Positions 2,252 to 19,040 of a DNA stretch of 35,575 nucleotides are shown here, in pieces. The DNA comes from Actinomycetota bacterium (GTDB taxonomy: Bacteria; Actinomycetota; Acidimicrobiia; Acidimicrobiales; Acidimicrobilacustridaceae): contig WLGJ01000003.1 of the NCBI GenBank assembly GCA_009703275.1, positions 1-35,575 of the forward strand, given 5' to 3'. The position numbers and the translations under genes were made by a program. How positions within the stretch are numbered: position 1 is the first letter of the stretch; each line of letters starts with the position of its first letter. The notes beneath the pieces are model-generated. The model was not told the DNA's origin. It did no database searches and saw only the letters and a list, made by a program, of their open reading frames with translations.

Positions 2252-3121
2252 TCAATTGCGCGGGGGGTTGAGTTCCCAGGGGGCCAGTGCAGTCATCAGT
2301 GCTCGAGAATGCTCAATGAGTTCGTCGAGTTGTTGAATCGCATCGCCATCAAGCACTCGATCAACCCACACCTGAAAGCCGGTGCCGGCAGTGAGCTCGA
2401 CGAGGAATCCCTCGGGTCGAGTCGGATGATTCACCCATTCGGTGACAACGTCACGCCAGCGGTCGCCATCAAGCTCAACCCCAGCGAGAACGCTGGCAAC
2501 GAGCGGACGTTCAGTGAGTGCAAATGCAGAACGTTCAGCGCTCGAGTCGCGACCGATGAACACATCGAACTCGGCGAGTTGGATCTGGAGCCGACCCTCG
2601 ACGTCGGAAAGTGGTTTCCCGCCGTACGTGTTGATCAGTTGATCGATAAGTGCAGCTTCGACACCAGTTCGCACCATGTTGGGGCGATGGATTGTCCGCC
2701 ACACAGGGCCGTTCTCGTCAAAGGAAAGTTCGATACCGAAGTCGGCAACGATTTCGTCCGTGAGCAGCATCGAACACCAGGTGTCGACCATGACGGTGAT
2801 GACTCGCTGAAGTTCAGAGGGTTCGGATGAGCCGGCGATCTTCGTGACCCATTCGGACACGTGCATGTCGGCCAACACTGCGTCAGTGAGATGGGCAACC
2901 GATACCCATTCACGATTAGGACCGGAGAGCGCATCGATCGTCCAGGTGATGCGAACGAAAGGGCCGTGCGGGTCTTGATCGCCGGTGCGGTCGATGATGC
3001 CGAAACCCCTATTGATAGAGGTCACATTGCTGGCATGGAGATTGGTGACAAAGAGCTTGGCGAATTCGCTGAGCTCCTCGAACGTGATCTGCCCCTCGAA
3101 GTAGGCCTGAATCTCATCCAT
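2252..3121 (-). CDS. Unknown protein of the motif-bearing gene set
   Basis: I do not recognise this 289-residue protein. It is acidic and looks cytoplasmic, with no signal peptide, membrane segment or obvious metal or nucleotide motif. It mixes alternating hydrophobic strands (for example FVRITWTIDAL) with helices, and has a helical C-terminus ending WELNPPRN. I chose ATG 3121 because AAGGGGAAG lies just upstream; a longer frame to 3163 would include the regulatory motif. It sits between the phosphatase and the HD-hydrolase genes on the same strand, with its own copy of the shared motif 33 bases upstream, so it probably belongs to the same response. Coding status is well supported by length, ribosome site and promoter; function is open. 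Confidence 0.75.
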   Translation of the reverse strand: MDEIQAYFEGQITFEELSEFAKLFVTNLHASNVTSINRGFGIIDRTGDQDPHGPFVRITWTIDALSGPNREWVSVAHLTDAVLADMHVSEWVTKIAGSSEPSELQRVITVMVDTWCSMLLTDEIVADFGIELSFDENGPVWRTIHRPNMVRTGVEAALIDQLINTYGGKPLSDVEGRLQIQLAEFDVFIGRDSSAERSAFALTERPLVASVLAGVELDGDRWRDVVTEWVNHPTRPEGFLVELTAGTGFQVWVDRVLDGDAIQQLDELIEHSRALMTALAPWELNPPRN

Positions 3122-3154: not shown

Positions 3155-3184
3155 GAAACGCACGAATGGGGGAGTGGTGTGCGG
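3155..3184 (-). promoter_or_regulatory. Conserved bipartite motif, copy 2 (unknown 289-residue protein)
   Basis: The minus strand reads CCGCACACCA, nine bases, TCGTGCGTTTC. The upstream half is the most divergent of the six but keeps GCACA; the downstream half is perfect. It lies in the 65-bp gap between the HD-hydrolase stop and the next gene, showing that the downstream gene has its own promoter. Confidence 0.65.
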
Positions 3185-3186
3185 TT

Positions 3187-3885
3187 TCAGCCAGAGAAGG
3201 AATTGACCGCTGCGTCGAGGTCTTCGATCGAAACACCCTCGAGGTCGCTGATGCTCTGTTTGAGGGCAGTCAGTTCGTCCTGAAGATCTCGAGCAAGTTG
3301 GGCCCCATAAGGCTGAACACCCGTAAGTCGTTCATTGAGGACCTTGACAAGTTGGCTTTGATACCAAATCTGCTGTGTGCGCTTGAACTCGATTGGGGCC
3401 TCGACCTTTTGGTCGAAGCGCAGCCAGAGCTGGCCCTTTTCTGACTTGTGGTCACTCACCATGGCCCGGACGTTGTGAAGCTTGTCTGCGGCAGAGATCA
3501 GAAGCACCGCACGGCGTTTCTTGTCGTAGGTCTTGATGTACTTCTGTTTTCTCGGATACCAAGCTTCCTTATTTTCGCTGTCTTCAACAAGGGAATCTGA
3601 GAGGTCTCTCACGTAGCCGGCGATCTTTGAGTCGAATTCCGCTTCGATCACGCTGAGCATGCGCTCGCCGCCATTGTCCTCAGCGACGTCATGAAGCAGC
3701 GCCGCAATGGCCTGGTCCTCGGTGCCGCCATATTGGAGCACGAGCGCGCTTACCCCGATCGAGTGGGAAAGATAGGGAACAGTTCCTCCACCCTTGCGGG
3801 CCTCGCCGTTCTGAAGAGTGCGAACCATCGTCAGCGCTTTGTCATAGCGCGAGGTCAAAATCGTTACTGAGGGTTGCTTTGCCAT
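3187..3885 (-). CDS. RelA/SpoT-type HD hydrolase domain protein
   Basis: A 232-residue stand-alone HD-domain protein. All residues expected of the (p)ppGpp hydrolase site are present: H41, H65-D66 in LLHDVAED, E69/D70 and D134 in AADKLHN. This is the arrangement of the SpoT hydrolase half and of small alarmone hydrolases such as MESH1. No synthetase domain follows; the remaining C-terminus is a charged helix-rich region. Likely reaction: Mn-dependent removal of the 3' phosphate group from (p)ppGpp, or from another nucleotide such as NADPH, as described for MESH1. I chose ATG 3885 because GGAAGG precedes it. It is divergent from the 158-residue gene at 3985, and the intervening region holds a copy of the shared motif pointing the other way. 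I see no copy pointing toward this gene. Confidence 0.85.
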   Translation of the reverse strand: MAKQPSVTILTSRYDKALTMVRTLQNGEARKGGGTVPYLSHSIGVSALVLQYGGTEDQAIAALLHDVAEDNGGERMLSVIEAEFDSKIAGYVRDLSDSLVEDSENKEAWYPRKQKYIKTYDKKRRAVLLISAADKLHNVRAMVSDHKSEKGQLWLRFDQKVEAPIEFKRTQQIWYQSQLVKVLNERLTGVQPYGAQLARDLQDELTALKQSISDLEGVSIEDLDAAVNSFSG

Positions 3886-3915
3886 GTTGTGCCTTCCGCC
3901 GTTGTCGGAATGACC

Positions 3916-3945
3916 GTACACATTTCTTGCGAGTTCGTGCGTTTC
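3916..3945 (+). promoter_or_regulatory. Conserved bipartite motif, copy 3 (158-residue gene)
   Basis: GTACACATTT, nine bases, TCGTGCGTTTC, on the plus strand 39 bases before the ATG at 3985. It sits in the divergent region shared with the HD-hydrolase gene, so a bound regulator could affect both. Confidence 0.75.
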
Positions 3946-3984: not shown

Positions 3985-4461
3985 ATGGAGTTTGAAGACG
4001 AAAAGTGGATGGATTTCATGGACCCCGAAAATTTGGGTCGAACCGATGGCAAGAAGGCCTTTGTCGCAGTATGGCGTGACCACTTCTGGGGTCATGAAAT
4101 TGATGGCTTCACGTATGCACTGACGATGGAAGAAGCCATTGAGCAAGTGCGTGGTCATGAGGCCGAGGGACTCCCGATTCACTCGTTGCAACGGGAGGAC
4201 GAATTCATCGAAGGTTTGTCCGGCGGCTTCACCGTTCGGGCGGCGCGGATCCTCATTGAGGCAGACGATGTCCTGGTCGAGGAAACCATCCCGGCCCTGA
4301 CGGTGTCGATGGCCATCGATTTGGCTCGCGACATGTTCGAGCCCCACTGCAGGGTGATTGCCCTCCAGGAGGGTGGCGAATCGATGGTCTTGGTCGACCG
4401 AGAGATCTACCGAGACAGGGCGGACATCCCGTTGGGCTGGGAACAGGTGCTCAATCGGTAA
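3985..4461 (+). CDS. Unknown 158-residue acidic protein
   Basis: I do not recognise this family. The protein is acidic, rich in E, D and W, and apparently cytoplasmic. The N-terminal half (MEFEDEKWMDFMDPENLG, then KKAFVAVWRDHFWGHEIDGFTYALTMEEA) looks like an alpha-beta domain with a helix carrying paired E residues; no catalytic motif stands out. The start is ATG 3985, supported by GAGGAGAACGC directly upstream; the frame is open further upstream but would run through the motif. It is followed after 5 bases by a further motif copy and then the deacetylase gene, so both may be induced together. Confidence 0.7.
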   Translation: MEFEDEKWMDFMDPENLGRTDGKKAFVAVWRDHFWGHEIDGFTYALTMEEAIEQVRGHEAEGLPIHSLQREDEFIEGLSGGFTVRAARILIEADDVLVEETIPALTVSMAIDLARDMFEPHCRVIALQEGGESMVLVDREIYRDRADIPLGWEQVLNR

Positions 4462-4466
4462 GGCCT

Positions 4467-4496
4467 GTGCACATTTTGGGACGTTTCGTGCGTTTC
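4467..4496 (+). promoter_or_regulatory. Conserved bipartite motif, copy 4 (deacetylase gene)
   Basis: GTGCACATTT, nine bases, TCGTGCGTTTC: a perfect match to the consensus. It begins 6 bases after the preceding stop codon and ends 35 bases before the deacetylase ATG. Confidence 0.8.
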
Positions 4497-4531: not shown

Positions 4532-5422
4532 ATGAATTACCCAATCTTTTACAATGACTCCTACGTGGTCCCGGGGGGAGGACTCGAGACAGTGCGCAAG
4601 GCAGACGAGGTCGCCAGGCGCATCCTCGAACAGTTCCCCGACATCAAGTTGGTGAGCCCAGAGCCGGCAACTGTTGAGCAGCTACTGCTCGCACACACGG
4701 CGGAGTACATCGAGGCCTTCCTTTCGGGAGAGCCCTATTACGTTGCATCGGCCGCACTCGGCGAATGGTCCGAAGAGGTTGTGGCCTCCGTACTTGCATC
4801 GACTGGTGGTGTGATTGAGGCGGCACTCACTGCACTCGAGTCGGGCAAGTCCGGTTCGTTGTCTTCAGGCCTGCATCACGCAGCGAGCGATCACGGCGCC
4901 GGGTTCTGCACAATCAATGGTCTGGCGATTGCCGCACTCGTCGCATTGCAGAATGGCGCAAAGAGCGTCGGCATTCTCGATGTTGATGCACACTGCGGTG
5001 GCGGAACGTTCGACATTCTCGGGAACAATCCGTTGATTCGAATCGGTGACGTTTCAACCAACGGTTACGACGCATGGCGATCGGGCCAGGAGCGTCACAA
5101 GTTGGAGATCACGACAGATCCCGACACGTATCTGGACGTGGTTGCAGAAATGCTCGAGCACATCGGTTCCGTTGACCTGCTTCTGCTGAACGCAGGTATG
5201 GACCCGGCCGAAGGCGGCTCCGCTGGTTCGACTCGTGGATTCACGTCCGAACTACTCGAGCAGCGGGAACTGCTCGTGGCGGAATGGTGCGAGCGCACGA
5301 ACACACCGGTCGCGTTCGTGCTGGCTGGTGGCTACGTCGGGTCGAACCTGACTCTTGGCGGAGTAGCCGATCTGCACATGCACACCGTTGCCGCAATCGC
5401 CGGCGCAACCATCAATCGTTGA
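4532..5422 (+). CDS. Histone-deacetylase-fold (class I/II-like) zinc amidohydrolase
   Basis: A 296-residue protein with the arginase/deacetylase fold. The full catalytic set can be placed: the His dyad in SGLHHA (H115, H116), GFC (about 124-126), the zinc-binding DxDxH in ILDVDAHCGGGT (D150, D152, H154), the third ligand D224 in LLNAGMDPAEGG, and the catalytic Tyr in LAGGY (Y268). It should therefore be an active zinc deacetylase on acetyl-lysine proteins, acetylpolyamines or another acylated small molecule. The usual HHGNG sequence is replaced by HCGGG. Start ATG 4532 follows GGCGGAAAGGCGG. Its own copy of the shared motif places it with the ADP-ribose-related genes; O-acetyl-ADP-ribose is one speculative substrate. 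A Cys-rich small gene follows 12 bases later. Confidence 0.85.
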   Translation: MNYPIFYNDSYVVPGGGLETVRKADEVARRILEQFPDIKLVSPEPATVEQLLLAHTAEYIEAFLSGEPYYVASAALGEWSEEVVASVLASTGGVIEAALTALESGKSGSLSSGLHHAASDHGAGFCTINGLAIAALVALQNGAKSVGILDVDAHCGGGTFDILGNNPLIRIGDVSTNGYDAWRSGQERHKLEITTDPDTYLDVVAEMLEHIGSVDLLLLNAGMDPAEGGSAGSTRGFTSELLEQRELLVAEWCERTNTPVAFVLAGGYVGSNLTLGGVADLHMHTVAAIAGATINR

Positions 5423-6251: not shown

Positions 6252-6989
6252 TCAGTTCGCCGGCGGTAATTCTGGCGCGCTCGGCGCCGGGCCAAGCGAG
6301 TTCAGCTGTTCGGTGAGTTGATCAACGTCACTCTGACAATCGGCCTCGAGTGACTCGATGTCACCAGTCGCTCGCGCGACGGCAAGATCGATCCAGAACT
6401 CGAACAGCTCACGGTTCGCGCTATCGACACCAATACCGCTGATCTTCTGACGATTCGACACCGCCATCGCCGTCCAGCCTGGGTCGTAGTTGGTGACGCT
6501 CAGCAGTTTCGACCATGCCCATTCACGCGAATGTTTCTGCCCAGCGAAGATTGCGCGCGTGCTGGTGACGGTGAACGTTCCGGTGTCGATCGGCGTTGGC
6601 GTTTCCTCGCCCTGCTGAAACGATCCCTTCGACGCGCCAACGCGGTACCGCAAGCGTGTGCCAGGGATCGGCATGGAAATGCCCTGACTGCGACCTTTCC
6701 ACTGACCGGGACCTTTGCGTGGTTCAACCAACACCGCATCGGTCACATGGCAATAGATCGACTCGCCGGCTTTCACCACCACGTTGATGTCGTCGGGCTT
6801 GTCGGCACCGGTTACGCCGTGGAAGTTCTTCACCGCATCAAGTCGAGCCTCGGCAAACCCGAGTTCTTCGACGATGTCAGCGCGAATTGCTTCGCGCTCG
6901 GCGGCGAGCTTGGCCGCCCTCGCGGCTTCGGCTCTTGCTTCTCGCTCGGCCTTCGCCGCTGCCCGCTTTGCCTTGAACTTCTCGAACAC
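6252..6989 (-). CDS. Hypothetical protein with N-terminal charged helix and possible PH-like domain
   Basis: A 245-residue protein. Residues 1-45 form a highly charged Ala/Lys/Arg/Glu helix (KAKRAAAKAEREARAEAARAA) that looks like a coiled coil. The rest is a soluble domain. One segment (DTGTFTVTSTRAIFAGQKHSREWAWSKL, split here as strands TFTVTSTRAIFAG and REWAWSKL) resembles the beta-strand pattern of bacterial PH/GRAM-like domains, where a strand ending in TxxR-hydrophobic is followed by a W or I-rich strand. The start is GTG 6989 with GGAGG 6 bases upstream. It may be a membrane- or cell-envelope-associated scaffold, but I do not recognise a specific family. Confidence 0.65.
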   Translation of the reverse strand: MFEKFKAKRAAAKAEREARAEAARAAKLAAEREAIRADIVEELGFAEARLDAVKNFHGVTGADKPDDINVVVKAGESIYCHVTDAVLVEPRKGPGQWKGRSQGISMPIPGTRLRYRVGASKGSFQQGEETPTPIDTGTFTVTSTRAIFAGQKHSREWAWSKLLSVTNYDPGWTAMAVSNRQKISGIGVDSANRELFEFWIDLAVARATGDIESLEADCQSDVDQLTEQLNSLGPAPSAPELPPAN

Positions 6990-7952: not shown

Positions 7953-8855
7953 TCAGGCTGCGAGAGCAAATGCGCTTGCGTGCACCACTGCACCGTCAAG
8001 CACCAGCGCCTGGCCGACCATCTTCGTGGTCTCCAAGTGCAGTTCTTCGCCGAGTCCGACACCAGGGGAGCTGGTGCCGCGAGCCGTGCCGATGCGAGTC
8101 ACGAAACGCAGCGCCCGTGACACCGAAGGACGACCTTCGATGCGTTCTGGTGCGTCAAGCAACGCTGCACGAATCAGCGCTTCCCAGTTCGCCGCAAGCA
8201 GCTCGGGCGTTGCGAAGATTTCTGCCGCAACGATGCGCCTACCGTGACCAAGCACGATGCCGCACTGACCCGGCAAAGGGCCGATGCCGGCCAGTTCCTG
8301 TGCAGCATTGGCCAACTGGTTGTCGGCTTCGAAGAGCAACTCCGACGCGTGAATCGCACGAGTAGAGGAGTCGACCTTCAAACGGTCGAGCTCGTAATCG
8401 ATGCTGTTCCACACCGCACCCTGATCGGAAGACTTCGTTCCGCCGCGTCGGACCGAATCACTCACGGTCATGTTCTTGACTCGGCGCACACGACGCGGTG
8501 CAAAGGTGCGACCACGCTCGAATGCTGAACGGCCGTTCCAACGACCGGCCTCGACACACGACACCGGAACGCTGATGGTTGCGCCACCAGGCACAAGCAC
8601 CGAAACGTTCAGCACTCGGTTCTGCTGACCACCGGTGACGGTTTCGCCTTCCACCAACAGCGCCGGACGCTGCCCGGAGTTGGTGACAGTGATTGTCGGG
8701 ACTTCGGCCGAACCTTGTTCGGTGATCTGGACGTCGGACGGTCGAGCACCAATGTCGATGCCGCCGCCGCCGTGGATATAAATGGGGAAGAGTGACACTC
8801 CACCCCGTGTAATCGGGCGTCCCACCGACGCCCGTTCCAACTGTTCGATCGCCAT
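7953..8855 (-). CDS. ARPP-1 family protein (ARG and rhodanese/phosphatase-associated)
   Basis: A 300-residue protein with the conserved core of the ARPP-1 (ARG and rhodanese-phosphatase-superfamily-associated protein) family: LLVEGETVTGGQQNRVLN (about residues 65-82), a following VPVSCVEAGRW, and a C-terminal HLETTKMVGQALVLDG. The family is known from comparative genomics to travel with ADP-ribosylglycohydrolases and phosphatases in NAD-linked gene sets; its biochemical activity is not established to my knowledge. Start ATG 8855 has GAGGAGG 8 bases upstream. It has its own copy of the shared motif 29 bases before the start, and sits between the two toxin-antitoxin modules. The family call is from memory of the conserved core. 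Confidence 0.8.
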   Translation of the reverse strand: MAIEQLERASVGRPITRGGVSLFPIYIHGGGGIDIGARPSDVQITEQGSAEVPTITVTNSGQRPALLVEGETVTGGQQNRVLNVSVLVPGGATISVPVSCVEAGRWNGRSAFERGRTFAPRRVRRVKNMTVSDSVRRGGTKSSDQGAVWNSIDYELDRLKVDSSTRAIHASELLFEADNQLANAAQELAGIGPLPGQCGIVLGHGRRIVAAEIFATPELLAANWEALIRAALLDAPERIEGRPSVSRALRFVTRIGTARGTSSPGVGLGEELHLETTKMVGQALVLDGAVVHASAFALAA

Positions 8856-8884: not shown

Positions 8885-8914
8885 GAAACGCACGATCGCC
8901 GGCGAAATGTGCAC
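8885..8914 (-). promoter_or_regulatory. Conserved bipartite motif, copy 5 (ARPP-1 gene)
   Basis: The minus strand reads GTGCACATTT, nine bases, TCGTGCGTTTC: a perfect consensus match located 29 bases before the ARPP-1 ATG. Confidence 0.8.
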
Positions 8915-8991: not shown

Positions 8992-9333
8992 ATGGCCCCT
9001 CAAGTGAAGTCCAATGCGACGTCGGCTGAATCAGTGACCGTCACCGAGGCCTCGCGTCTTGGCGTCTCCGACCTCGTGCGCCGGGCCAGTCAGGGGCACG
9101 ACATCGTGGTCGAAAAGCACGGCACCCCCGTGGCTGCGGTGATCGGCCTCGCCCGGTTCGAACAACTCGAGGACCTCGAAGCTGACCTTCGCAGTGCGGC
9201 CCTAGTTCTTTCCCGCTTGGCCACCGATAACGGCGTCCGCATCGGACTCGACGAGGTCATCGATTCGCTCGGTTTCAACCGGGCCGAACTGGAAGCAGAA
9301 CTCGACGCGGATCTCCGCGCCGAGCGCACCTGA
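8992..9333 (+). CDS. Phd/YefM-like antitoxin (module 2)
   Basis: A 113-residue protein with the Phd/YefM layout: VTVTEASRLGVSDLVRRASQGHDIVVEKHGTPVAAVIG reads as an N-terminal beta-helix DNA-binding unit (split as VTVTEASRLGVSDLVRRA and DIVVEKHGTPVAAVIG), with the characteristic HGxPVAxV strand. The C-terminal half, helical and acidic (LDEVIDSLGFNRAELEAEL), should bind the toxin. It is followed 16 bases later by the toxin gene on the same strand. It should block the toxin and repress its own promoter through the direct repeats upstream. The start is not supported by a Shine-Dalgarno sequence, but the -10 box position fits leaderless translation. Confidence 0.85.
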   Translation: MAPQVKSNATSAESVTVTEASRLGVSDLVRRASQGHDIVVEKHGTPVAAVIGLARFEQLEDLEADLRSAALVLSRLATDNGVRIGLDEVIDSLGFNRAELEAELDADLRAERT

Positions 9334-9349
9334 ACGTCCTCGTTCGTCG

Positions 9350-9928
9350 ATGACGCAACCTCGAGCCCAAGTTCGGCTGATTGAAGCAGCTGCGCACGAT
9401 CTGACGATGCTTGTTCGGTCGGACCCGCAGATCGTTCGCCAGGTCCTGAAGCGGTTGCTCTACATCGAACGTGAACCAACTGTTGGCGACCCGCTTCTCG
9501 GAGATCTCATCGGATATCGCAAGCTGACTGTGGGTGATCGTCATTGGCGGATCATCTGGCGCGTGGTCACGCAGCCGAATGGTGATCTTGTTGTTGAGAT
9601 CGCTGAAGTATGGGGAGTAGGAGCACGTGCTGAATCAGCGATCTACGCAGAGATGACGCGTCGCGTGGCAACGCTTCCCAAAAATCCTCAGACGATCGCG
9701 CTTGGTGATGTCATCGAATCGCTCGGGCGGACCGCAATGGGTCTCCGGGTGGAGGAGCAACAACGTCGAGAACCACTGCCGGAGTGGCTGCTCTCTCGCC
9801 TTGTTTATACAGCCGGATTTGCACGTCGAGAGGTTGAATCACTTGATGCAGAAGCGGCGATGGAATTGTGGGAGCGCTACATCACAAGCGACAACATCAG
9901 GGACGACGCTGGAGGATCGCCTACCTAA
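9350..9928 (+). CDS. RelE/ParE-like toxin with C-terminal extension (module 2)
   Basis: A 192-residue protein. The N-terminal ~95 residues match the RelE/ParE fold: an N-terminal strand VRLIEAAAHDLTML, helices to VLKRLLYIER, and the typical core IGYRKLTVGDRHWRIIWRVV, where R and W sit in a central strand, then VVEIAEVWGVGARAESAIY. The remaining ~95 residues (helical, charged) are not part of a standard toxin and may adapt it to a partner or target. Expected role: growth inhibition by mRNA cleavage or gyrase poisoning, held in check by the upstream antitoxin. The stop (TAA) abuts the stop of the convergent sigma-like gene with no gap. Confidence 0.8.
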   Translation: MTQPRAQVRLIEAAAHDLTMLVRSDPQIVRQVLKRLLYIEREPTVGDPLLGDLIGYRKLTVGDRHWRIIWRVVTQPNGDLVVEIAEVWGVGARAESAIYAEMTRRVATLPKNPQTIALGDVIESLGRTAMGLRVEEQQRREPLPEWLLSRLVYTAGFARREVESLDAEAAMELWERYITSDNIRDDAGGSPT

Positions 9929-10510
9929 TTACGCCGCGATCACGTACTCGCGGATGAAATTGCGAGCCTTGCCGAGTTCTCGCTGGCAATAGGCGCGGTT
10001 CTTGTCGAGATCGCGTGCGGCCTCGACAACGGTGTAGCCCTCGACGTCGACACGCCACACCAATGTGCGCTGCAATGCAGACAGCATCGAGAGTGCGTCG
10101 CGCACGTCGACCTGTGCCGCAACTGCGTCGGCAAAGTCGTGACCGTTCGTGGTGACGTCGCCGATGCGATCAGTGAGCTCGTCGAGCGAACCCATCTGAC
10201 GCCGAGCAACGCGCTGACCGTCGCGCTCCACCAAGTGTGCGCCCTGGCCACGCTGGATGCGCTCAGTGCGGCGCCAGTCTTCGGCGCGGTTGCGCAGTGA
10301 AACGGCGGCGAACACCTCGGGGGAGTAGGAGGACATCCAACGCTGTGGATCGGACCAGAACTGGAGGAAGACCAACATGGCCATGTCGTGCGCGCCGTTG
10401 TCGGTGCCGCGCTCGAACCGGCCGCGGGCCAAGCCCTGGGCAGTGCTGTAGACCCGAGCCCCGAAGGCTTGAGGGTCGTTGTTGGGGGAAGAGTTGAACT
10501 GATGTGCCAA
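9929..10510 (-). CDS. Sigma-70 family-like (ECF-type) factor
   Basis: A 193-residue protein with two helical regions matching ECF-type sigma factors. Residues ~30-85 resemble region 2 (DMAMLVFLQFW, then SLRNRAEDWRRTERI), and residues ~135-190 resemble region 4, with an HTH in LSALQRTLVWRVDVEGYTVVEAARDL and KNRAYCQRELGKAR (each under 30 residues, split here as helices). It would direct RNA polymerase to special promoters; the shared GCACA-N18-GTT motif in this window is the natural candidate. It starts at TTG 10510, supported by AGGAG 6 bases upstream. A minus-strand promoter (TTGACA-N17-CAATAT) lies about 130 bases upstream. It is divergent from nrtR. No anti-sigma gene is seen nearby. Confidence 0.7.
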   Translation of the reverse strand: MAHQFNSSPNNDPQAFGARVYSTAQGLARGRFERGTDNGAHDMAMLVFLQFWSDPQRWMSSYSPEVFAAVSLRNRAEDWRRTERIQRGQGAHLVERDGQRVARRQMGSLDELTDRIGDVTTNGHDFADAVAAQVDVRDALSMLSALQRTLVWRVDVEGYTVVEAARDLDKNRAYCQRELGKARNFIREYVIAA

Positions 10511-10561
10511 GTAGGGCTCCTATTCTCCGGCCAGCGCCCGCCGCCGGGTTTTGTGGGAAGA

Positions 10562-10579
10562 GCTCTGATTCTTCAGAGC
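10562..10579 (-). other. Small hairpin in the leader of the sigma-like gene
   Basis: GCTCTG and CAGAGC (6-bp arms, 6-base loop) lie between the predicted promoter and the TTG start. A longer GC-rich segment follows. It may structure the ~120-base leader, but no known riboswitch is recognised. Confidence 0.3.
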
Positions 10580-10617
10580 GCCTGTGACAGTCCAGGACCG
10601 ATTTCCGCCGGATACCT

Positions 10618-10640
10618 ATATGCTGTCGACAACTGCATAT
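10618..10640. promoter_or_regulatory. Inverted repeat in the nrtR / sigma divergent region (candidate NrtR operator)
   Basis: ATATGC-N11-GCATAT forms a 23-bp inverted repeat and overlaps the -10 end of the minus-strand promoter of the sigma-like gene. A related half, TATGCTGT, recurs inverted at about 10660-10676 near the nrtR start. Position and symmetry fit an NrtR operator, but the NrtR site of this lineage is not known to me. Confidence 0.5.
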
Positions 10641-10665
10641 TGTCATAGATGTGAATATATGTCAA
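10637..10665 (-). promoter_or_regulatory. Sigma-70-type promoter for the sigma-like gene
   Basis: On the minus strand TTGACA (10660-10665) is followed by exactly 17 bases and CAATAT (10637-10642). The -35 is perfect and the -10 keeps four of six consensus bases. Transcription would begin within the inverted repeat next to it. Confidence 0.55.
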
Positions 10666-10686
10666 GCAACAGCATAAAGTAAGCCT

Positions 10687-11571
10687 GTGACACCGACTTC
10701 GTACGACCCCTCTCAATTCCCACGTTTCGCAGTAACAGTCGACATTGCGGTGTTCACGCTCATGGATCTGCCCGTTCCGCCGAAGTCGGGCCAGGCCCCC
10801 CGGAAGGAACTCGCTGCCGTCCTCATTGTTAGAGGCGGCGACACTGAGGCCGGCCGATATGCACTGCCCGGAGGCTTCGTCCACATCGACGAAGACCTTT
10901 CGGCAGCTGCCCTTCGAGAGTTGCATGAAGAAGCGGGGCTTGAGTTGCCGACCTCGGCCATTCATCAGTTCCGGGCCTATGGCGACCCCGATCGAGACCC
11001 TCGAATGCGAGTCGTGACCGTTGCCCACACGGCCCTCACATCGATTGATGTTGCGCTCGAAGCTGGAACCGATGCGAAAGAAGTTGAGATCGTACCGGTG
11101 CGGAGAATTCTCGACGGTGAGATTTCACTTGCGTTCGATCACGATCAGATTTTGCGAGATGCACTCGAGTTCGTTCAGGTGTTGGTGGAAGAGACCTCTG
11201 CAATTCTCGAGTTGTGCCCGGAATCGTTCACACTCACCGAGCTTCGTCATGCGTGCGAAGCGGTCTGGGGTTATGAAGTTGATCGCGCGACCTTTAACAA
11301 GCGAGTGCTGCACATCGAAGGGTTTCTGGAAGCTGACGACGATGAGTCGTATCGGTCGTCACCGCCTGGCGACTATTTGTTAATGAGCATGGATTCGCCA
11401 TTAATGGAGACGCCCTCGAAGCCGAGCACACGGGGTCGTCCGGCGAAGCAATACCGCCGTGGATGGGCCGAAACGCTGCATCCGCCGTTATTGCGACCGC
11501 GTGATCGATTAAAGCAAACCGACTCTTGGTACGAGAACGTCTCGTTAAAGTCATTAATGACTGACGAGTAA
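10687..11571 (+). CDS. nrtR: NrtR-type Nudix transcriptional regulator
   Basis: A 294-residue protein. An N-terminal Nudix domain (about 15-165) carries a complete Nudix box: G63-x5-E69-x7-R77-E78-L-x-E81-E82-x-G84. A C-terminal winged helix (about 180-280) includes FTLTELRHACEAVWGYEVDR and the GRPAKQYR signature. This is NrtR, which binds ADP-ribose-type ligands and represses NAD-related genes; many NrtR proteins have lost the catalytic Nudix residues, so the intact box is notable. It starts at GTG 10687 with no clear ribosome site; TAAAGT at 10675-10680 could be a -10 box giving a leaderless message. No NAD biosynthesis gene is nearby, unlike typical NrtR loci. The last 60 codons are unusually rich in TTA. 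Confidence 0.85.
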   Translation: MTPTSYDPSQFPRFAVTVDIAVFTLMDLPVPPKSGQAPRKELAAVLIVRGGDTEAGRYALPGGFVHIDEDLSAAALRELHEEAGLELPTSAIHQFRAYGDPDRDPRMRVVTVAHTALTSIDVALEAGTDAKEVEIVPVRRILDGEISLAFDHDQILRDALEFVQVLVEETSAILELCPESFTLTELRHACEAVWGYEVDRATFNKRVLHIEGFLEADDDESYRSSPPGDYLLMSMDSPLMETPSKPSTRGRPAKQYRRGWAETLHPPLLRPRDRLKQTDSWYENVSLKSLMTDE

Positions 11572-11606
11572 TCGCGGCGCACTCAATAATGACCGGCGAT
11601 TAATGC

Positions 11607-11634
11607 ATCGTTAATCGTTAATCGTTAATCGTTA
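11607..11634. repeat. Four tandem copies of ATCGTTA
   Basis: A perfect 7-bp tandem repeat (four units) lies between the convergent stops of nrtR and the ADP-ribosylglycohydrolase gene. It is preceded by a wider inverted repeat (TAATCGC / GCGATTA, 11569-11602). It is AT-rich compared with its surroundings and may be a small replication-slippage tract or a protein-binding array. Confidence 0.8.
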
Positions 11635-11643
11635 ACGGGTCGA

Positions 11644-13110
11644 TTACCACTCGGCTTCGAGTAGCTCGATGAACGACTTCTGGTAGTCCTGATACTGATC
11701 CCAACGTTCGGACAGCCACACATGGGCCTCGCGCTCAGTGAAGCCGTTCGTGCGCATTGCCCAAGCCTTCAACACCAGGCCTGTTCGACTGTGGCCGCCG
11801 TGACAATGCACGACGACGGTGCGACCTTCGGCCAACAACGCGTCGATGGCATCGACAGCGTCGCGCACCGCCGTTACCGGGTCAGCATTTGCCGGCCCGG
11901 ACTGATCGATAAGGAACACTTCGCGCCGCGCAGCGTGGCCGTCGAATGCACCAAATGTTCGACACAGTGACACCACGCCCCACGACACAGGCGCGTCCTG
12001 CGCGCCGAACAAATTCGCGGCGTGCACGCCGGGGGCAACTTCGGTGGGGCCCGCCGACGGCTCGGCTGCTGTGGCCGCAACTGGTCCACGCCCTACTAAG
12101 GCACGGGCCAAATCCTGCAGACCCGCATTGTCGAATCGCACCACACCTTCGGGCGTTTCCAACTCGCCATTGATATAGGTCAACCAACGAGACGGAATGG
12201 CCTGCACGCTGTCTCGCGCGCCAGCAATTGCGCCGGCCACGGTAGCGACCGTGTCGGTGTCGCCGCCTAACTCAATTGCCGCAACCAACACATCTTCGAA
12301 TCGATCGTTATGGCGCACCGCCCAGACCGCCTGGGCCAAACATGTCCACACCGAACCGTTTGAAAGATCATCGGCATTGTTTGGTTCCCATGACACATCG
12401 AGCATTGCCGCGAAACGCTCGCGCTCGTCGGGTTCAACGCGCGCCAACACTTCTGGCAACGCTGCGATGGGGTCTTCCCCCAGCACCGCTCGGCGAATGA
12501 GCGCCGCAGCAATTGCTGCGCCCCAGCCTGCAGCCGCATCGAAGTGCGTGAGTGCTGCTTGCGCTCGAGCAACCGTCATGAGCGTGGCTTCATCGACGCC
12601 ACTCCATGCCAACGCGATTGGCGTAATGCGCATAAGTGCACCGTTTGCTGCACTGCGATTAAGCGCAACGTGTCCGTCATACGCGGCGCCGGGCCAGTCG
12701 CGTCGTGACAACACACGGCCAGTGAGAATCCCGCAGTCCTTCGCTTTACGACGCCAGGCCACGAATCGTGCCCACACATCGTCGGCATCGAATCCGCCAC
12801 TGGCAAGAACCGATTGCGCAAGCGCGAGCGCCATTTGCGTGTCGTCGGTGAATTCGCCAACGCGCCAATTGAATGTTCCGCCGCCGCACATTTCGCCAGT
12901 GCCGCCAAGAACCGGTTCGGGGAAACGTGCTCGATAGGAACCGGCCGGAAGGAACTCGAACGGTGCACCGAGTGCATCGCCAACCGCGGAACCGCACAAT
13001 GCGCCGATCACTCGTTGCACGGTGATCGCATCAAAGCTGGGCGGTTCGGGAAGAGCGATGAAGGCGGGAAGGCCTTCGGCAATGGTGCTGGGTCGTTCGG
13101 GTTCGTTCAT
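11644..13110 (-). CDS. ADP-ribosylglycohydrolase fused to dual-specificity phosphatase
   Basis: A 488-residue two-domain protein. The N-terminal domain (about 30-345) is an ADP-ribosylglycohydrolase: metal-binding EFTDDTQ (T88-D89-D90), and GGDTDT (D284, D286) for the second site, with FEFLP and NGALMR segments typical of DraG-like enzymes. It should remove ADP-ribose from protein, nucleic acid or small molecules. The C-terminal domain (about 360-485) is a Cys phosphatase with the P-loop HCHGGHSR (C436, R442), resembling the separate phosphatase at 1598-2206. The pair could release ADP-ribose and then act on a phosphorylated product. Start ATG 13110 has GAGGAG upstream; a longer frame to 13173 exists. 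It carries the shared motif, 85 bases upstream. Confidence 0.9.
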   Translation of the reverse strand: MNEPERPSTIAEGLPAFIALPEPPSFDAITVQRVIGALCGSAVGDALGAPFEFLPAGSYRARFPEPVLGGTGEMCGGGTFNWRVGEFTDDTQMALALAQSVLASGGFDADDVWARFVAWRRKAKDCGILTGRVLSRRDWPGAAYDGHVALNRSAANGALMRITPIALAWSGVDEATLMTVARAQAALTHFDAAAGWGAAIAAALIRRAVLGEDPIAALPEVLARVEPDERERFAAMLDVSWEPNNADDLSNGSVWTCLAQAVWAVRHNDRFEDVLVAAIELGGDTDTVATVAGAIAGARDSVQAIPSRWLTYINGELETPEGVVRFDNAGLQDLARALVGRGPVAATAAEPSAGPTEVAPGVHAANLFGAQDAPVSWGVVSLCRTFGAFDGHAARREVFLIDQSGPANADPVTAVRDAVDAIDALLAEGRTVVVHCHGGHSRTGLVLKAWAMRTNGFTEREAHVWLSERWDQYQDYQKSFIELLEAEW

Positions 13111-13195: not shown

Positions 13196-13225
13196 GAAAC
13201 GCACGATGCGCGCGCAAATGTGCGC
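13196..13225 (-). promoter_or_regulatory. Conserved bipartite motif, copy 6 (ARG-phosphatase gene)
   Basis: The minus strand reads GCGCACATTT, nine bases, TCGTGCGTTTC. It lies in the 181-bp region between the collagen-like gene and the ARG start; the 85-base distance to the ATG is the longest of the six, leaving room for a leader. Confidence 0.75.
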
Positions 13226-13291: not shown

Positions 13292-15385
13292 TTAGCCCGT
13301 GAACTTCGGGGCGGAGGGGTCGTCGGGACCAGTTGGTCCGGTACTCCCGCCTTCAAGTTCGAGCGGAATCGTGTACGACTCGGGGAACAGGACAGGTTCG
13401 CCTGGTGTGGGTGGTTCAGCTTCGAAGGCACCAACACCACCGTTGCCACCATTTCCACCGTTGCCGCCAACGCCACCGGTTCCACCAGCACCGCCGTTGC
13501 CACCGAAGGAGGCGGGAGCAAAGCCGGTCGGGCCCGTCGGGCCTTCGGGTCCGGTATCGCCGATGCCACCGATCATGCCCATCATGCCAGTTTCACCCAT
13601 TGGGCCTTGCGGTCCGGTGGGGCCATCTGGGCCGGTTTCACCAACTGGGCCGGTCGGGCCGGTCGGGCCAGTTGGGCCCCATGGTCCGGTATCGCCGGTG
13701 TCGCCCATTGGGCCTTGCGGTCCGGTGGGACCATCTTCGCCGTTCGGTCCAACGATGCCGGTTCCACCTGCAAAACCGGTGGGGCCAGTTGGGCCAGTCG
13801 TGCCCCTAGCTCCGGTCGGGCCAGTCGTTCCCATGGCGCCGGTCGGGCCAGTGGCACCGGGACTACCGGTCGGGCCATTTGCGCCTGTGGGTCCGGTTGA
13901 ACCATCAGCACCAGGTTGGAGATAACGAGAGTTGGGGTCGGGAACGATCGAAATTGATGCTTGAGTGAATGATGGGCCGGTGGGTCCTTCAGGGCCGGTG
14001 GGGCCAGTGGAACCAAAGTCGCCGGGTAGACCTTCTTCACCTAAGGGACCAGTGGATCCTTCAGGGCCAGTAGGACCTTCCTCGCCCATTGGTCCGGTGG
14101 GTCCTTCAAGGCCGGTGGGGCCAGTGGGGCCCCATGCGCCGGTCGGCCCGGGGTTTCCTTGAGGACCAGTTGGGCCCGTTTCGCCGGCCAAGCCCGTGGG
14201 GCCGGTGATGCCGAGGAAACTCGCCGGGCCGGTTGGGCCTTGCGGGCCCTGTGGTCCAGCGAGACCAGTCGGACCAACGCCTAAAGCGCCGGTCGGGCCG
14301 GGATAACCGGTGATTCCAGGCGGGCCGGTTGGGCCGGTGGGGCCATCTTCGCCAACCGGTCCAGGAGCAGCACCGGGCACATAGTTGAAGAGAACAATTG
14401 ATGGAGAGGGGTTTGATGAACGCAGGGCCGAGAACGAACCGAGCGATACGAAGCCGGCTGGAGCGAAAGCGCCGGTTGGACCCTCGGGACCAGTTGGGCC
14501 TGTTTCGCCGGCGAAGCCCGGGTCACCTGTGGGTCCCATGAGGCCGGTCTCTCCGATGGGTCCGGTCTGACCCATCGGCCCGGTCGGGCCCGTCGGTCCA
14601 TCTGGACCGGTCTCGCCCGTGGGGCCTTGTGCACCGGTTGGGCCGTCGAAACCTTGCGGACCAGTGGGGCCCATGTTTCCTTGTGCGCCGGTGGGGCCGA
14701 TGGAAATTCCCTCGGGACCAGTGGGACCAACAGGGCCGATCGGACCTTGCGGACCAGTTGGACCAAAGCCCATCGCTCCGGTCGGACCGAAAGGACCAGT
14801 CACACCCCAGGAGCCGGCTGGGCCAGTTGCGCCTGGCAAACCTTGCGGCGGAGTTGGCGTCACGATTGCGCCAATGAGGTAGTAGCCCTGCGCGTCGGGA
14901 GCGGTTTCGAGTTCGAGTGTGAACTGATTCGCGTTGTCGTTCGTTGCGCCGCTGAACGTTGCGGTGGTGGTGAACGAACCGTCGACAGTGGTTGTGGCGG
15001 TGACAACACGCGTTGCTGACGAATCGCCCGGAGGCATCAAAACGCCGTTCAAATAGGCGGTAATTGTGATTCCAACTGAGGTGCCCGCGGGAAGTGAGCT
15101 GAGACCATCGATGGTGATGTCGCCGTTGACGAATTCAAATGTCGCGGTGATAGAGCCGGCAGGTTCGTCGCCGGCTGCGGTCGCGGCAGCAACACTTTGG
15201 ATGATGTTGAGGTTGCCCGGAAGAAATGTGCGAGCGACAAACAAACCGCCAACACCGGCCAAACCGGTAATGACGCTTCGGCGAGAAAGCGGTCTGGTGT
15301 TGATCTTCTCGCGAGTGGAGAGCTCCTCGTTCGAGGGCGCGTTGCTGTCTTCGGGAACAGAGGAAGCCGAATCAGAACGTTCCAT
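13292..15385 (-). CDS. Tat-exported collagen-like protein
   Basis: A 697-residue protein. Residues 1-55 form a long twin-arginine signal (SRRSVITG with R35-R36, then a hydrophobic stretch [11 protein letters not shown]). A beta-rich domain of about 130 residues follows, then some 420 residues of Gly-X-Y repeats dominated by GPT, GPx and GPTGP triplets, and a Gly/Asn-rich end ([17 protein letters not shown]). Two non-repetitive inserts interrupt the collagen-like part (around residues 310-350 and 480-505). This looks like a trimeric triple-helix surface fibre, comparable in design to the spore-surface BclA proteins, where GPT threonines carry O-glycans. There is no cell-wall anchor motif. Start ATG 15385 has GGAG upstream. 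The glycosyltransferase gene lies 55 bases upstream on the same strand. Confidence 0.9.
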
Positions 15386-15406
15386 AGCGTGTGGGTCTCC
15401 ACCCTG

Positions 15407-15431
15407 ATCTCGAACAGTGCAAGAACGAGAT
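15407..15431. repeat. Inverted repeat before the collagen-like gene
   Basis: ATCTCG-N13-CGAGAT in the 55-bp gap between the glycosyltransferase stop and the collagen-like start. It could be an operator or a weak hairpin; there is no T-tract, so it is not a clear terminator. Confidence 0.35.
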
Positions 15432-15440
15432 GTTCTAAAT

Positions 15441-18400
15441 CTAGTCGGGCTGTGAAGAACGAGTTGGTCTATCGGAGTTGCTCGACAGTGGCAGTTCGGT
15501 CGCTACCGGCTCGAAATCGTGCTGGATGTCGGAATCGCCCGTTCGGCCAGGCCACGCCATGGTGGCGGAAGCGACTGCGGGAAGAGTTTCGAGCGCTCGC
15601 AACTCAGAACCGTGACGCATCGGGAACCAATCGATGCCGTTCTGGATGCCGTCGCGTTCGACGAGCTCAAGGAGATTGCGGGCGCCGGTTTTGGTAACGA
15701 GGTACGCGAACGTGCCGCCGAGGAACTCGGGCCACACCATGGGGCGCCAGCGATCCCGAGGCGCGAGGCCGGTGCGATCAGGGGCGGTGTCCCACTGCAG
15801 TGACCCTAAGAACGCGAGATCGAACTCCGTGGCTTGGGGGAGGTGCCCAAGCGCATCGACCAGTTCGTTCCGAAGGTGCGGAACGAAGGTGGTGTCGTCC
15901 TCGACGATCAACATCATGTCGTCGTCGCCGTCCGCGACCTGTTGCCACAAGTCGATGTGGCTGAGCGCGCATCCGATCAACCCGCGACGGAAATTGAAAT
16001 CGTTGTTGCGGAAGAGATGCTCGATCTCAGGAGTCATCACGAGATCGTGACCGTCGGTACCTTCAACGTGCAGAAACTTTGTTGCGGTTTCGGCATCGGC
16101 TGATGCAGAAAGTCGTTCAGTGAAGTCAGCCCAGCGATCGGGACGCCGCTCAAGATTGATGACACGAATAGGGAGCTTGTCGAAGCGCTTCAGGCCGGTG
16201 AGGACGCGTTCGATCGTTGGGAAGAGCTGGTACTCATCAAGTATCCGCTGCTTTTCGAGTCGGATGGCATCGATACGTTGACTCCATAAATCATCAGCGA
16301 TCGCTTGTTCAATGATGCGCTGAGCCTCAGCAGGGTCTTCGAGTGGAAGTCGAACGAACACATCAGGATCAACGAGTTGTTCAAGGTTGGGACAACCCCA
16401 ATAGAAGCAGAGGCATTCAGAGAGAATCGCGTCAAAAAACTTTTCGGTGACGTAATTGTGCTCGGAGAAATTTTCGACAGCGATTGTGTAGCGATAGGGA
16501 AAGAGTCCGTCGCGCTTATCCCATTCCGGTAGTTCACCCTTGTGTTTGGGCACACCATCGATTGCGCCGCGGCCAAACACATCGATATCGACGTTGTTCG
16601 ACGCGAGGTGTTGCACAAACGCAAGGCGAAGTTTGTGTCCGGGATCAAATGCTTTGTTCGAAACCACCACCGAAAGATCGCGAGTCTTTTCAATAGTTGA
16701 TGGGGTGTTGTTGCCACCACCGAGTTCGGCCCATGTTGAACCGAGATGCCACTCGGCAACGTTCGGAAACTGAGAGTGGGTGCGGACATGCAGTAAGTCG
16801 TCAGGGTTGGGCTCTGACCAATTTCCCCATGTGGCAACTCCGGCGAGCGGTTCCATGTGCAGAACAATGGACCGCTCAGGTTGCACGTCGGTCGGGCCTG
16901 GATGATTCAGGATGACGGTGACGTCAGCATCGGGATCATCAGTGAGGTGAATGCCATTCCACTTGTCATCGCCTTTGGTTTGCCGGGAGAAATGACTGGC
17001 GATGTTTGATGGATCACCCCAGAAGCTAACGAGGCGAACGGTGGTCGTCTCTGTTTGGGGGAGCGTGCGACCAAATTGCGCTTCACCGTTGAGTTCGTAC
17101 GCGTTTGGCCTGCGATTGGGGCCAGTTTCCGATGTGAGCGTTCCAATGTTGACATTGCAGATGTTGTCGAAGAACGCGCTGTGCAATCCGGCGGCGGTGA
17201 ATCGCTTTGCGAACTCAAGCTCAAAGTGAATTGGTTCAGTGCTGAACGCACCGATCTCGTTGATTGCGGATGTGCGCAACATTGACGGCCGAAACGAAAA
17301 GTTCGGCCACCACGAGTTGGTCGGACGGTTCTTTCCGATGTCTCGGTTGAAGATTTCGAAAGCTTCGGTTCCGGGCTCAGCATGGATGTGCACTCGGTAG
17401 GGCTGTTTGCCGCGTGCAGTCGTGCGCAGCTCGCCACCGGGAATGTCCCATTCGCTGGCTAGCTCTGCATAATTCCGATTGAACAACACCTGCCCAATGG
17501 ATAGATCATCTTCAAGGATGGCGATTGCACGGCTGACGTAGGAATCGGGGGCAAAAAACTCCCAGTCGTCTTCAAGGTGCATCCAATAGGGCGAAGAAAC
17601 CTCAGCGCGCAGTATTTCCATACTGCGCGCGTGACCCTTATTGGTGTTGTCCTTCCAAATGAATTCAAAGAACGGGTACCGCTCGGCCATCGCGGCGCGG
17701 TCTTGGTCGCTGGAACCATCGTCGATGCAGATCCATCGATCAATCGCATCGACATCAGTGCAATTGCGCAGGAACGAATCCATCGATCGGTCGAACAGGT
17801 CGCGACGCCGACAGGTGGTAATCGTGAGCGTGACATTGGGATCAACCGCAGGTGATTCGAATCGCTCGGTCAGCCTGGCAATGACATCGAGAGGACGTAT
17901 GCGCTCTTCAGCCAGAAGGTAGGGAAGGCAGAAGTCGCGATTGGAAAGCACCCGATCACGCTGGTCGAGCGGAAGCTTCGAATCGTTGAGCAATTTGGTG
18001 CACTGATCGAAGCTCTCTTGGTAGTTGCCGATGTAATAGGCGGCCATCGAACGCTCATCAGCAGCCTGCCAATTGTGGGCGTCGGCCGACACAAAGAGAA
18101 GGTCGCCATCGGGAAAGTCGATGTCAGTTGCGCGCGCCGCAAAGAGGTGTGCGAGCTGCCATTCGCTGGTTGATCGATAGTGGCGTGCGATTTCCACAAG
18201 AGGTTCGACGCGAGTTGGCCGGGTATTCCACGCATCGAGATACGCAGTGAGCACGCGATCCCACGATGTGCCCATTCGTTGAAGCGCTCGAGCGCGTTGC
18301 ATATGGGAATAGAAAATCTCTTCGTTCCAGCCGCCCATTTGGGTACGCCGCGTGTAGAGGTCGTAGGCCTCGTGCGGGTCGCCAGCGTCCATGCGGCTCT

Positions 18401-19040
18401 GAGCCAAATAGAAAACGGTTCGAGAATCGTCGGGATCGCGTTCGAGTTCGTCACGCAACACCGCGCTATCGCGTTCGTACTTATCGTCAGCGAGATTGCG
18501 TCCGCCCAGTCGACGGGACTCAAGGTGGTACTCGCCGCCCAGTCGCTCAATAGGTCCGCACGGTTCGGTGCAAACCGCGTATTCATGCAGGACGCCGCGA
18601 TATTCCCAGGGGCGTTCGAGTTTGAACAGTTGTGTGCGCCAGTAAGTGAAGCCTGTGCCGATGCGCATTATGTACGCGTCGGCATCGAGCGCATCGAAGT
18701 CAGGTTCGCCAACAAGAAGATCGTCAGCATCCATCATCAACGCGTACTCGGCACTTCCACGGCTGAGTTGAAGCGCTTCAGTTCGGTTGTGAGCGAAGTC
18801 CACCCATTCGCGTTCGTGAAGTTCTCCGGGGATTCCAGCTTCGGCAAAGTAGGAACGGATGAGGTCTTGGGTGCCGTCGGTGGATCCGGTGTCGACAATG
18901 CACCATGAATCAATGAAGGCTCGGACCGAGTCAAAGGCCTCGGTAACGACGTGGGCCTCGTCCTTGACGATCATGACAAGCGCAATGGTGGCGCGCGGGG
19001 GTTCAGCAGAGGTTGCCCTGATTTCTGCCTCACCGGTCAT
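15441..19040 (-). CDS. Four-module glycosyltransferase (GT2-TPR-GT2-GT10-GT25)
   Basis: A 1199-residue cytoplasmic-looking protein. Module 1 (about 18-130) is a GT2 glycosyltransferase with VDTGSTDGT and the MMDADD metal motif, followed by a helical repeat region (about 150-395). Module 2 (about 395-640) is a second GT2, with [10 protein letters not shown] and HLEDDWEF. Module 3 (about 680-950) resembles GT10 fucosyltransferases: [19 protein letters not shown] and the following CFYWGCPN. Module 4 (about 955-1160) is GT25-like, with [20 protein letters not shown] and [10 protein letters not shown]25 contains the animal collagen galactosyltransferases. It sits directly upstream of the collagen-like gene, so building a branched glycan on that protein is likely (inference). 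There is no ribosome site at ATG 19040, so the start is uncertain. All four modules keep their DxD/EDD-type motifs or signature. Confidence 0.85.

Follow-up and report, generated by a model that had tools for sequence, protein, structure and literature searches.

A divergent ECF-type sigma factor that very probably switches on scattered ADP-ribose-removal genes through a shared promoter in freshwater Acidimicrobiia

The DNA analysed here, a stretch of 35,575 nucleotides hereafter called the window (contig WLGJ01000003.1, C152 in our numbering), belongs to a 1.9-Mb, 78% complete genome of an acidimicrobiian and carries a pair of divergent regulatory genes among genes for the removal of ADP-ribose. 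A preliminary description of the sequence had taken the pair to be a sigma factor resembling the extracytoplasmic function (ECF) class and an NrtR-type Nudix regulator, and the pair is real: the sigma gene occupies 9929-10510 on the minus strand and nrtR 10687-11571 on the plus strand, with 176 bp between them. The NrtR protein combines a Nudix domain with the NrtR winged helix (NUDIX, 8e-14; NrtR_WHD, 6e-11; PF00293 and PF21906 both above cutoff), has an intact Nudix box, GFVHIDEDLSAAALRELHEEAGL, and matches Protein Data Bank (PDB) entry 3gz5, which we take to be the structure of SoNrtR. Genes, motifs and their positions, conservation and recurrence were read directly from this sequence and from those of relatives in the Acidimicrobiia, comprising 21 genomes of the genus and a sample of 395 genomes of the class; G, L and C numbers denote genomes, loci and contigs, respectively.

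The sigma gene encodes a protein of 193 amino acids (aa) whose TTG start codon is conserved in six orthologues. Its scores fall below the curated cutoffs of both relevant families, with E=1.2e-9 and 38.0 bits against a required 42.9 for TIGR02937 (sigma70-ECF) and E=2.9e-5 and 24 against 25.7 bits for Pfam Sigma70_r4_2, and such sub-threshold values mark it as a putative divergent member of the ECF group. A PDB search with the single sequence gave no match; a profile built from 14 relatives reached the ECF sigma factors SigE, SigL and SigH, mainly via region 4. The AlphaFold2 model contains two helical domains (residues 13-86 and 126-192) joined by a low-confidence linker. Foldseek places the Mycobacterium tuberculosis SigE, SigL and SigH initiation complexes at the top of its matches to this model (E values of 2e-5 to 2e-4), with poor superposition across both domains because the model does not predict how the two lie relative to each other. 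With region 4 recognized from sequence and the two sigma domains, sigma2 and sigma4 only, from the model, the protein is a predicted sigma factor of ECF architecture.

A candidate cognate promoter with the fixed -35/-10 spacing characteristic of this class lies upstream of the putative regulon. In the genus it has the form GCACATTT-N9-TCGTGCGTT, with GCACA-N18-GTT as its core. The window contains six copies of the full motif, up to three mismatches being allowed, where 0.07 would be expected (0 of 100 shuffles); in the whole genome there are 16, the reversed pattern giving none. The minimal GCACA-N18-GTT string, to which the preliminary description had tied its model, is by contrast not enriched genome-wide (64 matches, 64 in the control) and was rejected as a genome-wide signature. 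All six window copies are in the sense orientation, 8-87 bp 5′ of start codons. On the minus strand, one at 2215-2240 ends 8 bp before the ATG of a dual-specificity-type phosphatase gene (1598-2206; DSPc 4.7e-8, just under cutoff), one at 3157-3182, with three mismatches, lies 35 bp before the ATG of a 289-aa protein without a Pfam match (2252-3121; its relative in G005 is likewise motif-driven), one at 8887-8912 lies 31 bp before the ARPP-1 gene (7953-8855; PF20208, 7.9e-70), and one at 13198-13223 lies 87 bp before a gene fusing an ADP-ribosylglycohydrolase (ARG) to a dual-specificity phosphatase (DSP; 11644-13110; ADP_ribosyl_GH 6.8e-62, DSPc 3e-9), the last two distances again being to the ATG. 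The plus-strand copies are found at 3918-3943 (one mismatch), 41 bp before the ATG of a 158-aa protein with no Pfam match (3985-4461), and at 4469-4494, 37 bp before the ATG of a gene for a histone-deacetylase (HDAC)-fold protein (4532-5422; Hist_deacetyl 1.1e-27). Two further copies precede NYN and vWA genes on contig C65.

The placement of these copies fits that of a promoter. Of 33 distinct sites in the genus, 30 are followed within 120 bp by a start codon in the same orientation, and the spacing falls into two classes, a 'leaderless' one of 8-10 bp and a leadered one of 20-90 bp; the former, seen at several sites before an ATG, is as expected for leaderless transcripts if the GTT lies in the -10 element. 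Outside the genus, nine sigma regions totalling 114 kb contain GCACA-N18-GTT nine times, against about two occurrences for each other spacing. Eight of the nine stand directly before a start codon, the targets being HDAC, NYN and ARPP-1 genes in G305, HDAC, phosphatase and 306-aa open reading frames together with a separate 300-aa one in G034, and ARG in G021. All three of these genomes lack the GTGC half of the palindrome seen in the genus, with GCACA-N18-GTT and its distance to the start codon kept, a loss that argues against a palindromic operator. In G005 and G020, whose sigmas are divergent, the motif has a shifted form in common, GCACAC. A related sequence, GCACC(T/G)TTCC-N8-TGGTGCGTT-like and forming a more perfect inverted repeat, precedes sbcD genes at loci L122, L124 and L125, and is found in sigma-less genomes too.

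The distribution of the sigma family largely parallels that of the motif and of its targets. Full-length members occur in 11 of the 21 genus genomes, with a fragment in G008, and are rare elsewhere (11 of the 395 sampled class genomes). Within the genus, ARPP-1 and the sigma co-occur in ten genomes, two have the sigma only, none has ARPP-1 only and nine have neither (Fisher p=2e-4), and promoter-like motif copies are present in 11/11 genomes with a full-length sigma and in 4/9 without (Fisher 0.008). Distant sigma homologues, at 24-46% identity, adjoin ARG in G005, G020 and G021, ARPP-1 in G009, G011, G031 and G305, phosphatase, HD, HDAC or TY-Chap3 genes in G034 (two copies) and G008, and vWA plus helicase genes in G271; two further distant ones, in G055 and G413, have no ARG-system neighbour on their short contigs. 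The sigma gene lies downstream of ARG in G005, G020 and G021, and in the first two it sits behind its own predicted target promoter, implying positive autoregulation there. G011 keeps both the sigma and a perfect motif, and NrtR was not found in its genome. This comparative evidence supports a tie between the motif and the sigma, not NrtR, since the motif is kept beside sigma homologues that have no neighbouring NrtR, its core reduces to a -35/-10-like GCACA-N18-GTT, and its distances to start codons are those of leaderless and leadered transcripts. The proposal that the sigma factor acts on the motif promoters is thus supported, with recognition of the promoter by the protein predicted from these patterns.

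The space between the sigma gene and nrtR is more complex than first described. The housekeeping-type TTGACA-N17-CAATAT promoter reported there is present, at 10637-10665 on the minus strand and facing the sigma gene. Eight loci contain both a sigma and an NrtR gene, and in every one of them the two diverge and are accompanied by a sigma-ward promoter of the TTGAC type; no such promoter is found at the sigma locus of G011, which is without NrtR. The 23-bp imperfect inverted repeat ATATGCTGTCGACAACTGCATAT also exists (10618-10640; 9/11 pairs, overlapping the -10 element by 4 bp), but as the NrtR operator for which it had been named it was rejected: the nearest relative alone retains it, four of five orthologues (G015, G007, G013 and G012) have it broken, and 15% of intergenic shuffles hold a palindrome at least as good. 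The MsNrtR site, GTTTTCGA-N7-TCGAAAAC, was not seen in the sigma-nrtR intergenic sequence. Among the annotated window genes no neighbour of nrtR is an NAD-synthesis gene, so a role in NAD regulation finds no footing here, and elsewhere in the family NrtR genes occur without ARG-system genes beside them. Control of the sigma gene by NrtR is therefore a circumstantial proposal, resting on divergence and the sigma-ward promoter; the intact Nudix box suggests in addition that NrtR could destroy its own inducer. The nrtR gene itself looks leaderless, with a TAAAGT hexamer ending six bases before its GTG start (10672-10687; TAGGGT similarly in G006), and short tandem TTAATCG repeats lie directly 3′ of it (11597-11636). 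On the other side, the sigma leader (10511-10560, minus strand) contains a conserved, GC-rich segment, CCGGCGGCGG-CGCTGGCCGG, just 5′ of the ribosome-binding site that could form a hairpin.

Phylogenetic footprinting of the same space uncovered a further element, overlooked in the preliminary description. A ten-base core, CCTGTGACAG, is conserved in 8/8 paired loci, two distant ones included (0 of 500 shuffles); on the sigma strand it reads CTGTCACAG, followed by eight bases and an nAnnnT hexamer. The full element, CTGTCACA[G/C]-N8-nAnnnT, precedes all ten genus sigma genes that have their own promoter; it is present before the sigmas of G011 and G008, and also before those of G031 and G305, against a null rate of 0.0026 per upstream region. 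The window has a proximal copy, CTGTCACAG-N8-AAGAAT (10568-10590, minus strand), and an exact one, TGTCACAG-N8-TATGCT (10671-10692, minus strand), both facing the sigma gene. The exact copy is found only in G000 and G002; in its genome the pattern has just three perfect matches, the other two accompanying recC and dnaB. Across the 21 genus genomes, TGTCACAG-N8-YAnnnT has 59 matches against eight for the reversed control, and those inspected precede, among others, genes for DnaB, RecC, SbcD and RecA (identities read from the protein sequences); the variant CTGTCACAC-N8-TAGGTT stands before recA in 12/12 genus loci, with more copies in G009, G013, G021 and G055. The literature consensus for actinobacterial recA P1/PafBC promoters is tTGTCRgtg-N8-TannnT (PMC5656591), and such promoters are activated by single-stranded DNA (PMC11804915). 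By agreement with this consensus, the element before the sigma gene is assigned to the PafBC/RecA-NDp class of DNA-damage promoters, with PafBC as its predicted activator; proteins with a PafC-type helix-turn-helix (HTH_PafC) are encoded in 16 of the 21 genus genomes.

The simplest competing account is the one originally proposed, in which NrtR, binding at the 10618-10640 repeat, is the sole repressor of the sigma gene and lets go once it has bound ADP-ribose, after which the sigma factor activates the motif promoters. Divergence in all paired loci and the overlap of the repeat with the TTGACA promoter speak for it, as do the known sensing of ADP-ribose by NrtR proteins (PMC6800001) and the proposal by Iyer et al. 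that Nudix regulators are negative regulators of ARG systems. It is nevertheless unlikely. Besides the poor conservation of the repeat and the ease with which shuffling equals it, sigma and motif persist in genomes that have no NrtR, or none next to the sigma gene (G011, G005, G020, G021, G031, G034, G271 and G305), and the DNA-damage element is left out of account. A circuit consisting purely of NrtR releasing the sigma is incomplete at best because a recA-type element precedes the sigma gene; release by NrtR as one of two inputs stays plausible, and the preliminary model survives in part, with its sigma-to-motif step supported and its named operator lost. The conserved CTGTCACAG element might itself be an NrtR operator or a leader structure, given its core in every sigma-NrtR intergenic region and the palindromic nature of CTGTGACAG. 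The core CCTGTGACAG was indeed favoured at first as the NrtR operator, and was dropped on finding it before the sigma of G011 and before recA, recC and dnaB. That reading is improbable, in that the element also lies 5′ of the sigma gene of G008, where NrtR was likewise not found, and before sbcD, is absent from six other NrtR loci and keeps its eight-base spacing to the nAnnnT hexamer.

Two further alternatives concern the motif. It could be an operator of NrtR or of another dimeric repressor, the genus form being an imperfect palindrome, GCAC-N15-GTGC, and the literature assigning NrtR regulators to ARG systems. This is highly improbable in view of the out-of-genus copies that dispense with the GTGC half, the retention of the motif in G011, its consistent orientation relative to genes, and the lack of any copy in the nrtR promoter although MsNrtR represses its own gene. 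Alternatively, another factor, such as a WYL regulator or a different ECF sigma, may read the motif, the window-type sigma being merely co-inherited. Promoter-like copies are indeed kept in four genomes (G018, G017, G010 and G019, 78-96% complete) in which the sigma family was not found, where they stand before TY-Chap3, vWA, GGACT-type or orphan genes (loci L105, L106, L104 and L118, in the same order), and this retention means that another factor may read the motif there. As a general explanation it has a low probability, set against the excess of copies in sigma-bearing genomes, the shift of the motif variant with the sigma clade, and the reappearance of the motif in other genera, next to distantly related sigmas.

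The motif-bearing genomes without a sigma weigh against a sigma-driven, damage-induced regulon, and other observations do so too. The sigma protein scores under the curated cutoffs, and its model has only a moderate confidence (pLDDT, the predicted local distance difference test, of 67). The proximal DNA-damage element in the window has a weak -10, AAGAAT, that departs from YAnnnT, and the exact copy overlaps the nrtR start codon. No such element precedes the sigmas of G005, G020 and G021, those lying downstream of ARG, and the 78%-complete genome to which the window belongs yielded no PafC. In the sigma-nrtR intergenic regions of the orthologues, no conserved palindrome or NrtR operator was found. 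Finally, the six orthologues of the window type are closely related to one another and amount to a single lineage for several of the tests.

On balance, the small ECF-type sigma very probably switches on scattered ADP-ribose-removal genes through the shared promoter in these freshwater Acidimicrobiia. The fuller reading also appears likely, namely that the sigma serves a GCACA-N18-GTT regulon and that its own gene is under a DNA-damage promoter plus, where paired with NrtR, a housekeeping promoter located between the two genes. The predicted regulon would comprise the ARG-phosphatase, ARPP-1, the phosphatase and the HDAC-fold protein, with vWA, NYN, TY-Chap3 and GGACT-type proteins encoded on other contigs. 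DNA ADP-ribosylation is known to trigger the SOS response (PMC7003065). Damage to DNA or a stall in replication, with ADP-ribosylated DNA as one possible cause, would expose single-stranded DNA, activate PafBC and raise the level of the sigma. NrtR would probably hold the second, housekeeping promoter down until its presumed ligand, ADP-ribose, accumulates. The sigma could then drive transcription of the genes for enzymes that remove and break down ADP-ribose adducts, the presumed physiological substrates. A dedicated ECF sigma might in this way join two alarms, single-stranded DNA through the PafBC-type promoter and ADP-ribose through NrtR, with a dispersed regulon clearing ADP-ribose from macromolecules as a bacterial 'ADP-ribosylation-damage response' atop the DNA-damage response; we hold this synthesis tentatively, with slightly less than even confidence. 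For ARG-centred systems, a sigma with a readable promoter would define the full regulon, non-neighbouring genes included, and convert guilt by association into a signature that can be searched for. The recA-type promoter would tie the reversal of ADP-ribosylation to DNA damage, which fits the perception of ADP-ribosylated DNA (from DarT-type toxins or phage enzymes) as damage.

The remainder of the window adds further members and neighbours to the cluster. At its edge, and cut by the contig end, is a UvrD-like helicase (1-1248, plus strand; UvrD_C_2 1.8e-7), whose match to a NERD-helicase-like protein (4e-19) is the only kind of match PADLOC reports in the window. An HD_4/SpoT-like HD hydrolase is encoded at 3187-3888 on the minus strand (HD_4 7.7e-15). 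No ADP-ribosyltransferase or sirtuin domain was found among the annotated open reading frames of the cluster, and Rfam matched no known RNA element in the window. Between ARPP-1 and the sigma gene (8992-9928) lie a gene for a PhdYefM-type antitoxin and then a 192-aa gene, possibly RelE/ParE-like, both kept in several relatives. Beyond the ARG-phosphatase gene, a large collagen-repeat protein adjoins a 1199-aa multi-domain glycosyltransferase (13292-19040), a possible glycosylated surface collagen module. In one relative (L089, on G007:C56) the ARG-phosphatase gene has been lost from a locus that is otherwise syntenic, so that its promoter motif (6462-6487) stands orphaned between nrtR and the collagen-like gene. 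At L158 and L163, GenBank records of metagenome-assembled genomes titled Bifidobacterium breve hold the same Acidimicrobiia locus and are apparently mislabelled.

Among known ECF sigma factors, the SigR/SigH type, which uses a GGAAT-N18-GTT promoter, offers the nearest parallel in form: two sigma domains and a promoter whose -35 and -10 elements are 18 bp apart, the latter containing GTT. The present family differs in reading, as predicted, GCACA in place of GGAAT, in an invariant QxGxGA stretch after region 2, in that no anti-sigma gene was found adjoining the sigma gene, and in the apparent wiring of its expression to a DNA-damage promoter and a Nudix regulator. The NrtR protein shares with Mycobacterium smegmatis MsNrtR, an auto-repressor (PMC6800001), its Nudix and winged-helix domains and a divergent gene pair; unlike MsNrtR, it neighbours a sigma and ADP-ribose genes and not nadABC, and its Nudix box is intact and not degenerate. 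Literature retrieved on NrtR together with ECF sigma factors dealt with other topics, as judged by title, and a literature search found no paper joining ARPP-1 with ADP-ribosylglycohydrolase, or PafBC with an ECF sigma. The element before the sigma gene matches PafBC/RecA-NDp promoters (PMC5656591, PMC11804915) and, like them, sits at recA, recC and sbcD; here it also precedes a sigma factor gene, which would add a second regulatory tier. A direct precedent for this logic is the Streptomyces ADP-ribosyl-DNA hydrolase SCO6735, which is under a RecA-NDp promoter (PMC9411070), with one enzyme controlled directly and neither a sigma tier nor a regulon. The closest counterparts in gene content are the ARG-centred systems of Iyer, Burroughs, Anantharaman and Aravind (2022; PMC9503650, section 3.8), predicted to reverse phage-imposed ADP-ribosylation and to be governed by Nudix or WYL repressors; the words 'sigma' and 'regulon' are both absent from the main text of that paper. 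As in those systems, the ARG is coupled to a phosphatase (the ARG-DSP fusion) without a coupled ADP-ribosyltransferase, and its associates include an ARPP, an HD phosphatase, vWA and TY-Chap chaperones, a helicase and a Nudix-HTH regulator, with NrtR and ARPP-1 in the window and vWA and NYN genes behind the same motif on C65. What sets the present system apart is a dedicated ECF sigma and promoter that would unite genes on separate operons and contigs.

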